Assembly: GCF_900100715.1 (NCBI RefSeq)
Contig: NZ_FNCA01000003.1
Coordinates: forward strand, 124,001 to 188,000
DNA length: 64,000 bases
Source of the DNA: Methanolobus vulcani
Lineage (GTDB): Archaea; Halobacteriota; Methanosarcinia; Methanosarcinales; Methanosarcinaceae
Direction: 5' to 3'
The notes under the pieces were generated by a model. The model did no database searches. It was given only the letters and a program-made list of their open reading frames with translations, and was not told the origin of the DNA. A program made the translations under genes and the position numbers. Numbering within the stretch: the stretch's first letter is position 1; every line of letters starts with the position of its first letter. This document shows positions 22,576 through 28,133 of this stretch, piece after piece.

Positions 22576-22692
22576 GCCGAGGTGGCAGAGCGGACTAATC
22601 CGGCCGGCTGAAGAGCCCCGGAGTCCAAACGCGACCGGCTCGAGACCGGTTTCTCCGGAAGGAGTGCTTGGGTTCGAATCCCAACCTCGGCG
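22576..22692 (+). tRNA. tRNA-Ser (anticodon CGA), intron-containing
   Basis: Class II tRNA. Acceptor GCCGAGG (22576-22582) pairs with CCTCGGC (22685-22691); discriminator G at 22692 is typical of serine. T arm TTGGG-ttcgaat-CCCAA; variable arm CTCC-ggaa-GGAG; anticodon arm ACCGG-ctCGAga-CCGGT gives anticodon CGA at 22641-22643. CCA is not encoded. The D loop is 30 bases too long; removing 22599-22628 leaves a normal 87-nt serine tRNA. A TATA-like element lies near 22545. Confidence 0.9.
22599..22628 (+). other. Predicted intron in the D loop of tRNA-Ser(CGA)
   Basis: Exon GGACT pairs with intron AGTCC; the unpaired AAT (5' side) and AAA (3' side) then form the two 3-base bulges of a bulge-helix-bulge target for the archaeal splicing endonuclease, with an intron hairpin CCGG/CCGG plus GGCT-GAAG-AGCC. 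Central helix is 5 bp rather than 4. Exact cuts (after AA in each bulge) are inferred. Confidence 0.7.
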
Positions 22693-22995: not shown

Positions 22996-23502
22996 ATGAT
23001 AAGCAAATGTACAGAAGGAAGGATGAGGAAAATAGAGAGAATACTGGATAATAATGAAGAGATCATTGATGCAGTGTCCGGTATTGTCAATGGGAAACTG
23101 TTTGGAGAAAAAACTGAAAAGCTTGGTGGTGTACTTGCACTTACACCCCAAAGAGTACTATTCCATTATAAACGAGAGAGTGGTTATTATCGATCTAAGA
23201 TATACCCACTGGTTGAGATCAGTAATATCAACTTTGAAAAAGGAATCCTTGGAGCGGACATACAAATGCAGAACAGCATTAGTAGCCTCAAGGTCACACT
23301 TATACCTTTAAATGAGAATGCCGAAGAATTTGTCAGGAAGACAAAATTATACATAAATGAAATAATCCACAATAAAACATGCCAGGTTACAGGTAGCCAT
23401 GACATAATAGAACAGATCAAGAAGTTATCCAGCCTGAACAAACAGGGAGTTATAACAAATGAAGAATTTAGCGCAAAGAAAAAGCAACTCCTTGGAATAT
23501 AA
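22996..23502 (+). CDS. PH-like/SHOCT-domain protein
   Basis: A 168-residue soluble protein. Residues about 15-115 look like a bacterial PH (YokE-type) domain (KLGGVLALTPQRVLFHYKR ... YPLVEISNINFEKG); the C-terminus IIEQIKKLSSLNKQGVITNEEFSAKKKQLL is a SHOCT motif, a short helical pair thought to aid oligomerisation. Start unclear: GTG 22984, ATG 22996 and ATG 23023 are in frame with no strong ribosome binding site; 22996 is chosen. Function unknown. Confidence 0.75.
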   Translation: MISKCTEGRMRKIERILDNNEEIIDAVSGIVNGKLFGEKTEKLGGVLALTPQRVLFHYKRESGYYRSKIYPLVEISNINFEKGILGADIQMQNSISSLKVTLIPLNENAEEFVRKTKLYINEIIHNKTCQVTGSHDIIEQIKKLSSLNKQGVITNEEFSAKKKQLLGI

Positions 23503-23637
23503 CATAAAATTATGATATAATAAAAGCTAAATACTAAATGTCTGCCTCTTTTTTATTAACTCATTTTACAAAATACGTAAGCTGCACATAAATATTTATA
23601 TAGATAGCTCCAAGATAAAAGAGAAGATAATTAATTA

Positions 23638-23855
23638 TGGAGGGATGGCTGAGTTCGAAGAACTAAAGGGAACTTTGTAGGCATATTAATTAGCTGGGAT
23701 TGATGGGTTACAAAGAAGTAGGTAATTAATTTATATGTTCTGTGCAGGGGGTAGTATGACTGGAAAGTAGACATACTTTTATAATTGATTCAATGTCTAT
23801 GCCCTATAATTCGTCCACTGAATTAATGATAACTAGGTGGTTGAGCATCCCAGAT
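23638..23855 (+). ncRNA. Structured RNA of about 215 nt, leader or stand-alone
   Basis: Non-coding stretch closed by GGGATG (23642-23647) and CATCCC (23846-23851). Inside are a hairpin GTTC-gaa-GAAC (23653-23663), CTTTGTA/TACAAAG (23673-23679/23709-23715), ATTAATT/AATTAAT (23725-23731/23821-23827), AGGG/CCCT (23746-23749/23802-23805) and GTAGACAT/ATGTCTAT (23767-23774/23793-23800, one G-U). A TATA box (aaatatttatatag, 23590-23603) sits about 30 bases upstream. It ends 14-17 bases before the kinase start, so it could be a riboswitch-like leader or a separate RNA. I do not recognise the family. Confidence 0.55.
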
Positions 23856-23868
23856 ACAATTACTAATT

Positions 23869-25497
23869 ATGGCGGTTTCTAGGCAGATGATAGCAAAAGA
23901 AAACACATTGGGGAAAAAAAACAGGGAGCAAAATCACCATGAGTTAGTAAAAGAGCTCAATGGAAAAATTGCTGATCTTACTGCAAGATTAGAAGTTGCC
24001 GAATCAAAACTCAAAGACACAGAAGAGTTCTACTGTGAAAGACTCAATAACCTTAACGATGTCCTTTTTTCAGTAGATACAGAAGGTTTTTTCACTTATA
24101 TAAATCCGGCCATCGAAAACATAACAGGTTATTCAATAGAAGAAGTTCTGGGAACTCATTTTACAAAACATGTACATCCTGATGACATCTGTGGCCTTCT
24201 GGATGACATCGAAAAAACTGTTTCTGGTAAACATAAACCCTATATGTTCAGAATTGTAAAAAAAGATGGTGCCATAAGTTACGTGCATACCACATCCAGA
24301 CCAATAGTAATAAATGGAGAACTCAAAGGAATCAACGGTTTAATGGTTGATATTGCACGACTCAAACAGGTTGAGGTCAGACTCAAAGAAGAAAGAGACC
24401 GTGCACAGAATTATCTCGATATTGTAGGAGTAATTATACTTGCAATTGATACTGAAGGCAATATCAAACTTATAAATAAGAAAGGATGCGAAATATTCGG
24501 CAAGGAAGAATGCCACCTCATATCAAGTAACTGGTTTGACCTCGCATATCCCGATGAAGAAAAAGAAGTATGGAAAAAAGATTATAACAGTTTTATTCAG
24601 GGAAAAGAGGCATTCAAACCTTATTTTGAAGCAACCATACAAACAAAAGATGGAGAAAGGATATTTGCATGGCATAACAGATGCATCAATGATAAAGATG
24701 GAAATATAACAGGAGTACTATCATCTGGAAATGACATTACTGAAAGAAAGAAAGCAGAGCAAGCACTTGTTTTTGCCAAACTAATATCTGAAAATGCAAA
24801 CCGTACTAAAAGACAGTTCCTTTCAAATATAAGTCATGAACTGAGAACTCCCCTGAATCTTATAATTGGATACTCTGATCTTTTATACGAAGACTATGTG
24901 GGTACGACAACTAAAGAACAAAAAGAGTACCTGGAAGTCGTCAAAAGAAGTGGGAACAGATTACTTCTTTTGCTAAATTCAATGATAGAACTCTCAGCCA
25001 TTGAAGAAGGAAAAGTCGAACTGAATTTAAAAGATTTCTCAGTACCTGTTATACTCAAAGATATCAAGAACTCTACGCTTCCAATGGCAAAGAAAAAACA
25101 TATAGATCTGCAGTTCTGTATTGATGAAAATATAAAGACAATAAAAGCAGATAAGAACAAGTTCAAAACTGTACTTTACAATCTCATAAATAATGCCATT
25201 AAATTCACTAACGAATGCGGAAACATTAAAGTAGATATTACAAAAGACAGGCAGATGATAAATGTTTCAGTCAAAGATGACGGCATTGGGATCAAACAAG
25301 AGAATATCGAGAAGTTATTCCAGCCATTTTCGCAGATCGATTCTTCACTTAACCGTAAATTTGAAGGAGCAGGGCTTGGACTCAGTATTGTTAAGGAGTT
25401 CGTAGAAATGCATGGCGGGAATGTAAATGTTGAAAGCGAAATAAATAAAGGAAGTAATTTCAGCTTTACAATCCCGCTGTTAAACGAGAATAACTGA
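23869..25497 (+). CDS. Cytoplasmic PAS-PAS histidine kinase
   Basis: A 542-residue kinase with no membrane segment. Order: coiled coil (20-55), PAS 1 (about 57-165; FSVDTEGFFTYINPAIENITGY), PAS 2 (about 180-300), HisKA with the phospho-accepting SNISHELRTPLN (about 325), and HATPase_c with N box NLINNAIKFTNE, G1 DDGIGIKQENIEKLFQPF and G2 GAGLGLSIVK. No response regulator is adjacent on this strand. No ribosome binding site precedes the ATG; the structured RNA at 23638-23855 is immediately upstream. Confidence 0.93.
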   Translation: MAVSRQMIAKENTLGKKNREQNHHELVKELNGKIADLTARLEVAESKLKDTEEFYCERLNNLNDVLFSVDTEGFFTYINPAIENITGYSIEEVLGTHFTKHVHPDDICGLLDDIEKTVSGKHKPYMFRIVKKDGAISYVHTTSRPIVINGELKGINGLMVDIARLKQVEVRLKEERDRAQNYLDIVGVIILAIDTEGNIKLINKKGCEIFGKEECHLISSNWFDLAYPDEEKEVWKKDYNSFIQGKEAFKPYFEATIQTKDGERIFAWHNRCINDKDGNITGVLSSGNDITERKKAEQALVFAKLISENANRTKRQFLSNISHELRTPLNLIIGYSDLLYEDYVGTTTKEQKEYLEVVKRSGNRLLLLLNSMIELSAIEEGKVELNLKDFSVPVILKDIKNSTLPMAKKKHIDLQFCIDENIKTIKADKNKFKTVLYNLINNAIKFTNECGNIKVDITKDRQMINVSVKDDGIGIKQENIEKLFQPFSQIDSSLNRKFEGAGLGLSIVKEFVEMHGGNVNVESEINKGSNFSFTIPLLNENN

Positions 25498-25517: not shown

Positions 25518-25841
25518 TCATAGATCGACTTCGTGGATCTTCACAGCAGTTCCATATGCAAGTAATTCTGCTGCTCCTGCCATTGTCTGTGAAGTTGTGA
25601 ACCTCACATTCACAATAGCATCAGCATTTAACTGCTCTGCATTTTCTATCATGCGGTCATATGCTTCCTTTCTGGCCTGGGTTAGCATATCAGAATATCC
25701 TTTAAGCTCGCCACCTACAATATTCTTCAAGCCTGCTGCAATGTCACTGCCAATATGCTTGGCACGAACAGTGTTTCCAAAAACCACGGAAATAATCTCA
25801 AGTTCTTTTCCATCAATCCCATCTGTTGTAGTTACTATCAT
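25518..25841 (-). CDS. YbjQ/UPF0145 family protein
   Basis: A 107-residue protein with the family hallmarks GNTVRAKHIGSDIAAGLKNI, GGELKGYSDMLTQAR and NADAIVNVRFTTSQ. The family is annotated as a putative heavy-metal-binding, homopentameric domain; function unproven. GGAGAG is well spaced from the ATG. It lies 19 bases downstream of the sensor kinase below and may share its transcript. Confidence 0.88.
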   Translation of the reverse strand: MIVTTTDGIDGKELEIISVVFGNTVRAKHIGSDIAAGLKNIVGGELKGYSDMLTQARKEAYDRMIENAEQLNADAIVNVRFTTSQTMAGAAELLAYGTAVKIHEVDL

Positions 25842-25860
25842 ACATTCAACTCTCCATGAA

Positions 25861-27603
25861 TTATGCTTTAGTCAATGTAAAAATAAAAGTACTGCCTTTT
25901 CCTTGCTCACTGGTGGCAACTATACTTCCACCCTGACCTTCTATTATACCTTTCACTATGGAAAGACCAAGGCCACTTCCTCCTACCTTGCGGGTAGAAG
26001 TACTGTCTATCTGGTAGAATTTATCAAATATCTTCTCCAGCTCTTCCGGACTCATGCCTATACCATCGTCACTAACACTTATCCTCACCAGATCAGAATC
26101 ATCCTGCGCTGTTATCCGGATATTACCATTCTTTTTGCTGAATTTTGCGGCATTGTTCAGTAGATTAACAAAAACCTGAACCAGTTTGTCCCTGTCAGTA
26201 TAGACCTGGGGAAGATCATCCGGAATTTCCACCAGTATATTCATACTTTTCTCTTTGATGACAGCGGAAAGCATCTCTAGAGAAGTATTAACTGTTTCCT
26301 CAATATCCAGAGATTCTTTATGAAATTTCATGCGGTTGGATTCGATCCTTGATATATCCAGAAGATCATCCACCATTCTGGATTGTCGGTCTATATTCCT
26401 GATAATAATATCGAGCATCTGCCTTCTAACAGGAATACTACATTCATCACTTTCCCGCAAAAATTCACTGGATGTCCTCATGGCTGTAAGAGGAGTTTTA
26501 AGTTCATGTGATACAATGGACAGGAACTCAGTTTTAAGACGGTCCAGTTCTTTGAGTTTCTTATTTGCAGCCCTCAGGGATTCATTGGATTCTTTTAGTT
26601 CCTGAGTTTTTTCTCCTACTTCCTTTTCAAGACTTTTACTCCAGTTATAGAGAATGATCACTAAAAAGGAACTTACAAAAATAATGAAAAGAACTGAAAC
26701 CATTGCCACAATGAAAAGCTTAAGGTAAACTGAAACAATCAGTCGGTCAACTTCAGAGGAGGGGCTTGTCAGTGCAAGTGACCACTTCTGGTTGTACCAT
26801 TCAATCGGAGAATAGGAAACGAGTCTTTCTTCATAGATAGTTCCATTTTCAAGCAGTAAATACTTACCATTGCCTTCAGAACCATTGACCTGGTCTGCTA
26901 CAATTTCCTGTAAACCGGATGCATTGGAACCAAAAATATCAACATAAAGGGCGCCTCGCTTATAGTTATGGTCACCTTCATAAAGTATCCTGCCACGATC
27001 ATCAATAAGATATGCATAACTTGATGAATTGGATTCAACTACATACCGGTCTTTCAGATCAGACTCTTTGATAATAGCAATAAAAGCTCCCCTGAACTCA
27101 TCTCCCTCATAAACAGGAATCCAGATAAAAGCTCCATAATTTCCTTCCATGAGTTTCAAAGGATCTGTGATATAAACTTCATTGTTCGTTTTCACATATT
27201 CAAAAGCACGTGATTGATCATTCTCATAGAGGTTGAAACCTAAAGGAACGGATTCTTCCGGATAACCTGAAACTATTGTCCCATTCTCTGCAACATATTC
27301 TACCACATAGAACAATCTAGCAATTTCATAGACACTCTTTAGATCCGATTCGAAATTGTCATCGGGAACTCCTGAATCTTTTTTAGCGATGACCTCCAGA
27401 AGAGATACTCTTTCATTAAGTGTTTGTTGTATACCACCAGCAACATGCCTTGTAAGTAACAACTGCTGATTCTGATATTGTTCCTCAACAACAGACCTGA
27501 CCTCTATGTTGGTCCTCATCCAGAGAAAAAAGATGGAACTTATCAGAAGCAAAACTACTACAGCAAAGATTATGAGGTTCCATTTGCTTTTACGGTTCCA
27601 CAT
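25861..27603 (-). CDS. Membrane sensor histidine kinase with extracellular Cache-like domain
   Basis: A 580-residue kinase: transmembrane helix 1 (about 9-28), a 240-residue outer sensor region of the Cache type (ENGTIVSGYPEESVP; AYLIDDRGRILYEGDH), transmembrane helix 2 (about 290-315), coiled coil, HisKA with SIVSHELKTPLTA, N box NLLNNAAKFSKK, G1 DDGIGMSPEELEKIF and G2 GSGLGLSIVKGI. The cognate response regulator precedes it by 17 bases, forming a two-gene operon. Ligand unknown. Confidence 0.93.
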   Translation of the reverse strand: MWNRKSKWNLIIFAVVVLLLISSIFFLWMRTNIEVRSVVEEQYQNQQLLLTRHVAGGIQQTLNERVSLLEVIAKKDSGVPDDNFESDLKSVYEIARLFYVVEYVAENGTIVSGYPEESVPLGFNLYENDQSRAFEYVKTNNEVYITDPLKLMEGNYGAFIWIPVYEGDEFRGAFIAIIKESDLKDRYVVESNSSSYAYLIDDRGRILYEGDHNYKRGALYVDIFGSNASGLQEIVADQVNGSEGNGKYLLLENGTIYEERLVSYSPIEWYNQKWSLALTSPSSEVDRLIVSVYLKLFIVAMVSVLFIIFVSSFLVIILYNWSKSLEKEVGEKTQELKESNESLRAANKKLKELDRLKTEFLSIVSHELKTPLTAMRTSSEFLRESDECSIPVRRQMLDIIIRNIDRQSRMVDDLLDISRIESNRMKFHKESLDIEETVNTSLEMLSAVIKEKSMNILVEIPDDLPQVYTDRDKLVQVFVNLLNNAAKFSKKNGNIRITAQDDSDLVRISVSDDGIGMSPEELEKIFDKFYQIDSTSTRKVGGSGLGLSIVKGIIEGQGGSIVATSEQGKGSTFIFTLTKA

Positions 27604-27620
27604 AGATCATTTTAAGATAT

Positions 27621-28133
27621 TCAGATGTCCTGCCTTCGCAGGACCATTTTTACACGTGCTTTCAGTTCTTTCAGGTTAAAAGGCTTGGTAACGTAATCAT
27701 CAGCACCAAGTTCAATACCTTCTACCTTATCATCGATCTCCCCACGCGCTGTAAGCATGATGATTGGAATATGACGATACATATCATCGGATTTTAACTG
27801 GTTGCAAACCTCAAAACCATCGATTCCAGGTATCATCAGGTCAAGCAGGATCACATCCGGTTTTTCAGAATGTACTTTATCTATAGCTTCATGACCATCC
27901 TTTGCTTCAGCAACATTATAACCTTCAGCTTCAAGGACAACTTTCAGGGATAGCAGGGCATCCATCTCATCATCAACAATGAGAACCTTCTGCCTTGTAT
28001 CAGACATACTTTCCAGTGCATTTTCAACCTTGTTCACTGGCATTGATAACTTATCTGCGATCTCCTTTGCAGTTATCCCTGGATTCTCTTCCATGAGTGA
28101 AAGTATCTTTCCGCCAATATTTTCTGCTTGCAT
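27621..28133 (-). CDS. Response regulator with N-terminal helix-turn-helix-like domain
   Basis: A 170-residue protein with a short N-terminal helical domain (GKILSLMEENPGITAKEIADKLSMPVNKVENAL, residues 7-40) resembling a winged-helix half, followed by a receiver domain: acidic pair VDDE (about 54), phospho-acceptor in VILLDLM, switch Thr in IIMLTARG and Lys in YVTKPF. A DNA-binding module placed before rather than after the receiver is unusual. Partner of the kinase downstream. Confidence 0.9.
   Translation of the reverse strand: MQAENIGGKILSLMEENPGITAKEIADKLSMPVNKVENALESMSDTRQKVLIVDDEMDALLSLKVVLEAEGYNVAEAKDGHEAIDKVHSEKPDVILLDLMIPGIDGFEVCNQLKSDDMYRHIPIIMLTARGEIDDKVEGIELGADDYVTKPFNLKELKARVKMVLRRQDI

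Follow-up and report, generated by a model that had tools for sequence, protein, structure and literature searches.

What is the non-coding stretch that stands in front of a cytoplasmic histidine kinase gene in the methanogenic archaeon Methanolobus vulcani? A sequence-only reading of the window analyzed here (64,000 nt of contig NZ_FNCA01000003.1) had proposed that positions 23638–23855 form an unrecognized, multi-branched RNA, possibly the founding member of a new family. Our best reading of this region is a genus-specific cis-regulatory 5′ untranslated region (UTR) that is recognized via sequence motifs, and not a demonstrated new family of structured RNA.

The gene downstream is indeed a PAS histidine kinase, as its Pfam domains confirmed, and its closest named relatives come from M. 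vulcani, M. profundi, and M. psychrotolerans. The ATG at 23887 was present in all 15 kinase orthologs checked, whereas the ATG at 23869 was replaced by ACG in genome G061 and by CTG in G060, and was out of frame in G063. This places the true kinase start at 23887 and assigns GGCGGTTTCTAGGCAG to the leader; this segment is conserved even though relatives interrupt the frame that begins at 23869. The same frameshifts and lost starts rule out a coding stretch, either as an upstream ORF or as a kinase N-terminus extending from 23869. No canonical Shine-Dalgarno sequence was found in front of the kinase start, in agreement with the earlier description of a gene lacking a ribosome-binding site. The limits originally given are too narrow, since the conserved leader runs from approximately 23621 to 23886 and the kinase starts at 23887 rather than at 23869. 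The features of the locus are listed in Table 1.

Table 1. Features of the kinase gene and the region preceding it (window coordinates)
Feature	Position	Strand	Basis
TATA box TTTATATA, preceded by A-rich BRE-like ACATAAATA	23595–23602	+	Direct reading; TTTATATA invariant in 7 species
Putative 5′ leader (UTR) of the kinase mRNA, approximately 265 nt	23621–23886	+	TATA spacing; homologous stretch before orthologous kinases
Block GGAGGGATG	23639–23647	+	Alignment; holds the 5′ arm of the proposed closing helix, GGGATG (23642–23647)
Block TTTGTAGGCAT	23674–23684	+	Alignment; GGCAT can pair with ATGCC approximately 115 nt downstream
Block TTAGCTGGGATTG	23690–23702	+	Alignment
Most conserved block TTCTGTGCAGGGGGTAGTATG	23738–23758	+	12-species alignment, profile matches
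CATCCC, 3′ arm of the proposed closing helix	23846–23851	+	Direct reading, complementarity
Conserved GGCGGTTTCTAGGCAG, abutting the corrected start codon	23871–23886	+	Alignment; no canonical Shine-Dalgarno
Cytoplasmic histidine kinase, PAS-PAS-HisKA-HATPase_c	23887–25497	+	Pfam; 536 aa from the corrected start; 15 orthologs

On its 5′ side, the leader is preceded by a tRNA-Ser gene and a gene for a bPH-SHOCT protein. Beyond the kinase gene lie, in convergent orientation, a YbjQ-family gene, a second kinase gene, and a response regulator gene. These three genes occupy positions 25518–28133 of the minus strand; the second kinase has a weak dCache match, the response regulator contains an HTH domain, and the YbjQ gene adjoins the kinase in most relatives. 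The tRNA-Ser(CGA) gene (22576–22692, plus strand, 117 bases), whose start is misplaced by ARAGORN, carries a D-loop insertion resembling a non-canonical archaeal intron. Its helix order (GCG, a 3-nt bulge AAA, GGACU-AGUCC, a 3-nt bulge AAU, and CCG-CGG) fits a bulge-helix-bulge splice motif. The gene was matched in 27 of 27 Methanolobus genomes, and in an alignment of 15 Methanolobus species its body was nearly invariant and the inserted loop variable.

The promoter that had been read in front of the stretch held up as a strong TATA box. In M. psychrophilus, the spacing from promoter to transcription start is 19–22 nt, and 24% of mRNAs have a 5′ UTR longer than 150 nt, so that leaders of this kind are frequent in Methanolobus (PMC5378194). 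With the transcription start set approximately 20 nt past the TATA box on the basis of this spacing, the leader would extend to the corrected kinase start. As its short motifs are conserved across related species, it is probably a genuine mRNA leader that exerts some control. The stretch had been called non-coding, and correctly so: there was no long ORF within 23638–23855, and indels in relatives rule out coding. Three loci of the more distant relatives (L040, L041, and L042) contain a AATTAATATAATAATTA-like stretch approximately 30 nt before the kinase ATG, which resembles a second, proximal TATA box and could give rise to a short alternative leader.

The earlier reading had called for an alignment of regions upstream of homologous kinases, and such regions proved to be conserved together with the kinase. 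When the DNA of 112 genomes of the family was scanned (the source genome shares the genus Methanolobus with 26 other genomes searched), strong matches occurred in the same genus only, all of them before the orthologous kinase. In at least seven species, a leader homolog precedes the orthologous PAS-PAS histidine kinase, and after orientation, seven sequences aligned from the TATA box through to the kinase start. Five more distant species retained the central motifs only. A profile built from the sequence of the core alone recovered all seven training species and also the held-out genome G042 (E = 3.6e−5), the kinase of which is only 70% identical, whereas no second convincing locus was found with the profile in the 27 Methanolobus genomes. 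The bPH-SHOCT gene had no tblastn match within approximately 1.4 kb upstream in G046 or G063, and the leader is present in both, indicating that the leader travels with the kinase. Because the leader is single copy in its own genome and in the relatives, a mobile element or MITE is ruled out, despite a direct repeat, TAATTATGG, at its ends (23630–23638 and 23863–23871); the repeat resembles a target-site duplication and is probably due to chance, given the single copy. Usable sequences numbered about a dozen, and their variable parts were prone to misalignment.

Conservation within the leader is concentrated in short blocks: GGAGGRAT, TTTGTAGGCAT, TTAGCTGGGATTG, TTCTGTGCAGGGNGTAGTATG, and GGCGGTTTC. 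The core of the most conserved block, TTYYGTGCAG, is also present in the more distant relatives. Among the ungapped columns of the seven-species alignment, 51% were invariant in the blocks, compared with 14% in the leader beyond the blocks, 24% in the leader as a whole, and 13% at the fourfold-degenerate sites of the kinase gene. Because the blocks were picked by eye for their conservation, the contrast between 51% and 13–14% is descriptive, and the independent support comes from the match to held-out G042. The overall identity of the leader among close relatives (56–81%) was only modestly above that at fourfold sites (48–64%), and this was counted against the leader reading, as were the poor conservation of 23805–23860 and the distant relatives that have only the central motifs, some of them with the TATA-like stretch near the start codon. 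Conservation is best across 23639–23800, gives way to 60 nt that are variable in both length and sequence, and then returns, reaching as far as the start codon of the kinase. An ordinary A/T-rich spacer without function, the similarity of which reflects shared descent, would accord with the pairs whose identity is near the fourfold-site level and with fold z-scores near zero (see below). This explanation is very unlikely, however, when set against block invariance approximately four times that of the fourfold sites (in blocks chosen by eye) and a core that is still recognizable in G042 beside such a diverged kinase.

A short ORF within the leader, ATGGCTGAG...TAG (23645–23680, plus strand), could specify a leader peptide, MAEFEELKGTL, coupling its own translation to that of the kinase. 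The frame is also open in the nearest relative, G046 (MAEIEEQQGTL), where three third-base changes are silent. Nevertheless, G061 and G062 lack an ATG at the corresponding position and run straight into a stop codon, and GGAGG lies just one base from the ATG, so that we consider such a peptide highly improbable.

The density of helices in the stretch had been judged unlikely to arise by chance, and a comparison with shuffled sequences had been suggested as a check. The minimum free energy of 23638–23855 was −50.9 kcal/mol, whereas 200 dinucleotide-shuffled sequences averaged −46.8 ± 4.1 (z = −1.0) and 31 of them folded equally well; in other words, the stretch is no more stable than its composition predicts. 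The opposite strand folded better (z = −2.5). Across 12 orthologous leaders, a set in which the borders of the L034 segment were misplaced through a chance motif match, the mean single-sequence z was −0.58 ± 0.32.

Comparison of the relatives revealed no conserved global fold. RNAalifold gave consensus structures no better than those of column-shuffled alignments, with z = +1.6 for four species, +1.4 for five, +0.4 for seven, and −0.9 for the closest pair. In contrast, RNase P RNA, used as a positive control with the same seven species and the same test, reached z = −4.8, although it is far more conserved (95% versus 60% identity) and hence easier to align. The covariation of helices was not significant against a tree-aware (Fitch) null with five species; with seven taxa, though not with five, one G-U-rich helix (GGGTT/GATTC) outscored 60 null alignments, and no helix showed covariation that survived both taxon sets. 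A scan of covariation between matched and mismatched window pairs gave p = 0.26, a structured model gained only 1.1 bits on held-out G042, compared with approximately 21–31 bits on the training rows, and an analysis of motif accessibility yielded no convincing structure. The relatives thus lend no support to the multi-branched fold of a new RNA family. The statement that the stretch matches no known family did stand: among the covariance models of Rfam 15, none reached its gathering threshold within the stretch, the tRNA at 22576 was the sole match, and the best sub-threshold matches reached 21.1, 14.8, and 10.6 bits where 48, 36, and 100 would have been required.

The individual helices that had been named are all present in the M. 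vulcani sequence: GGGATG/CATCCC, the GTTCGAAGAAC hairpin, CTTTGTA/TACAAAG, AAAGTA/TACTTT, and CCAC/GTGG. Most of them were disrupted in relatives. The GTTC-GAA-GAAC hairpin was broken in six of six relatives, CTTTGTA/TACAAAG was retained fully or for the most part by three of the six and lost from the remaining three, and CCAC/GTGG was limited to the nearest relative. The closing helix is the one element of the proposed structure with suggestive, borderline complementarity. It was broken in the nearest relative, G046 (TAGATG/CACCCA, four of six pairs), and was fully re-formed in G062 (GGGATT/AATCCC) and G061 (GGAATT/AATTCC), with compensatory changes that include G-C to A-U and G-C to U-A. Its summed complementarity exceeded that of shuffles (z = −5.1), and a comparison of matched with mismatched species gave p = 0.01–0.05 with L032 and 0.05–0.13 without it, values that vary with the species set and the block borders. 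For the seven-species set, the covariation component was borderline at p = 0.03–0.05 and, with this species left out, 0.09–0.13. Predicted pair probabilities were low in most species. One alignment was off by one column at the 3′ arm, so that the pair counts for this helix are understated; the complementarity tests were unaffected. Such a short closing helix might draw the leader's 5′ end close to the start of the kinase.

A second long-range pairing, GGCAT/ATGCC, was the best window pair in the complementarity scan (z = −6.0), in which 3 of 11 shuffled alignments scored better; its matched p was 0.014, and 87.5% of cells were paired. Together, the two pairings invite a rival explanation, namely, a riboswitch- or thermometer-like leader in which the pairing of a 5′ GGRAT element with ATYCC near the kinase start, and that of GGCAT with ATGCC, compete with local hairpins. 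The closing helix re-formed in G061 and G062 and the pairing statistics of both helices speak for such a leader, whereas the break in G046, the consensus folds of four, five, and seven species, the window-pair scan, which did not go beyond shuffled alignments, and the small gain on G042 speak against it, as does RNase P RNA, which passes the same consensus-fold test. We regard a structured leader of this kind as unlikely. Similarly doubtful is its extension to a new genus-specific RNA class, in which the kinase leader would switch between a long-range closing pairing (GGRAT/ATYCC or GGCAT/ATGCC) and local hairpins, and would thereby gate a start codon that lacks a Shine-Dalgarno sequence.

Archaeal intergenic small RNAs (sRNAs), such as sRNA154 of Methanosarcina mazei, resemble the kinase leader in that they are non-coding and have their own TATA box. 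The sequence-only reading had also envisaged a stand-alone regulatory RNA, and the stretch might be an sRNA of approximately 180 nt, from the TATA box to approximately 23800, that merely precedes the kinase gene. The high conservation of 23639–23800 followed by 60 variable nucleotides would suit this explanation, since a poorly conserved 23805–23860 could separate an upstream RNA from the kinase start region; furthermore, sRNAs are common in the genus, with 195 in M. psychrophilus (PMC5378194). In contrast to such sRNAs, the leader always lies beside the same kinase gene, is absent elsewhere, and has no demonstrated conserved stem-loops. A scan of 23500–23950 for terminators of the hairpin-plus-T-run type found none. 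With no such terminator, and with conservation that picks up again as far as the kinase start, an mRNA leader is the likelier of the two, and we consider a stand-alone RNA improbable.

The explanation that we favor, with moderate confidence, is that the kinase mRNA carries this stretch as a long untranslated leader at its 5′ end and that the motif blocks of the leader are probably bound by a trans-acting factor. Transcription would begin approximately 20 nt after the TATA box and continue through to the kinase start codon, so that leader and kinase would be co-transcribed. A hypothetical trans-acting factor, either an RNA-binding protein or a small RNA, would bind the short leader blocks, chiefly TTCTGTGCAGGGNGTAGTATG and the start-adjacent GGCGGTTTC, and the bound factor would set the translation or the stability of the kinase mRNA.

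The long 5′ UTRs of M. psychrophilus, a methanogen of the same genus, and of Methanosarcina mazei are similar in having a BRE/TATA promoter, a long leader, and no obvious riboswitch; those leaders were mapped by dRNA-seq (PMC5378194), whereas the kinase leader is read from sequence and has conserved motif blocks. Riboswitches and other cis-regulatory leaders in Rfam share its location between promoter and start codon and its conserved blocks. The kinase leader differs from them in having no Rfam match at the gathering score and no demonstrated conserved fold, and in being confined to part of one genus. The locus also shows how a leader may look richly folded by eye when only its primary sequence is clearly conserved. 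Little is known about the post-transcriptional control of archaeal sensor kinases, and the Methanolobus kinase leader offers a concrete test case.
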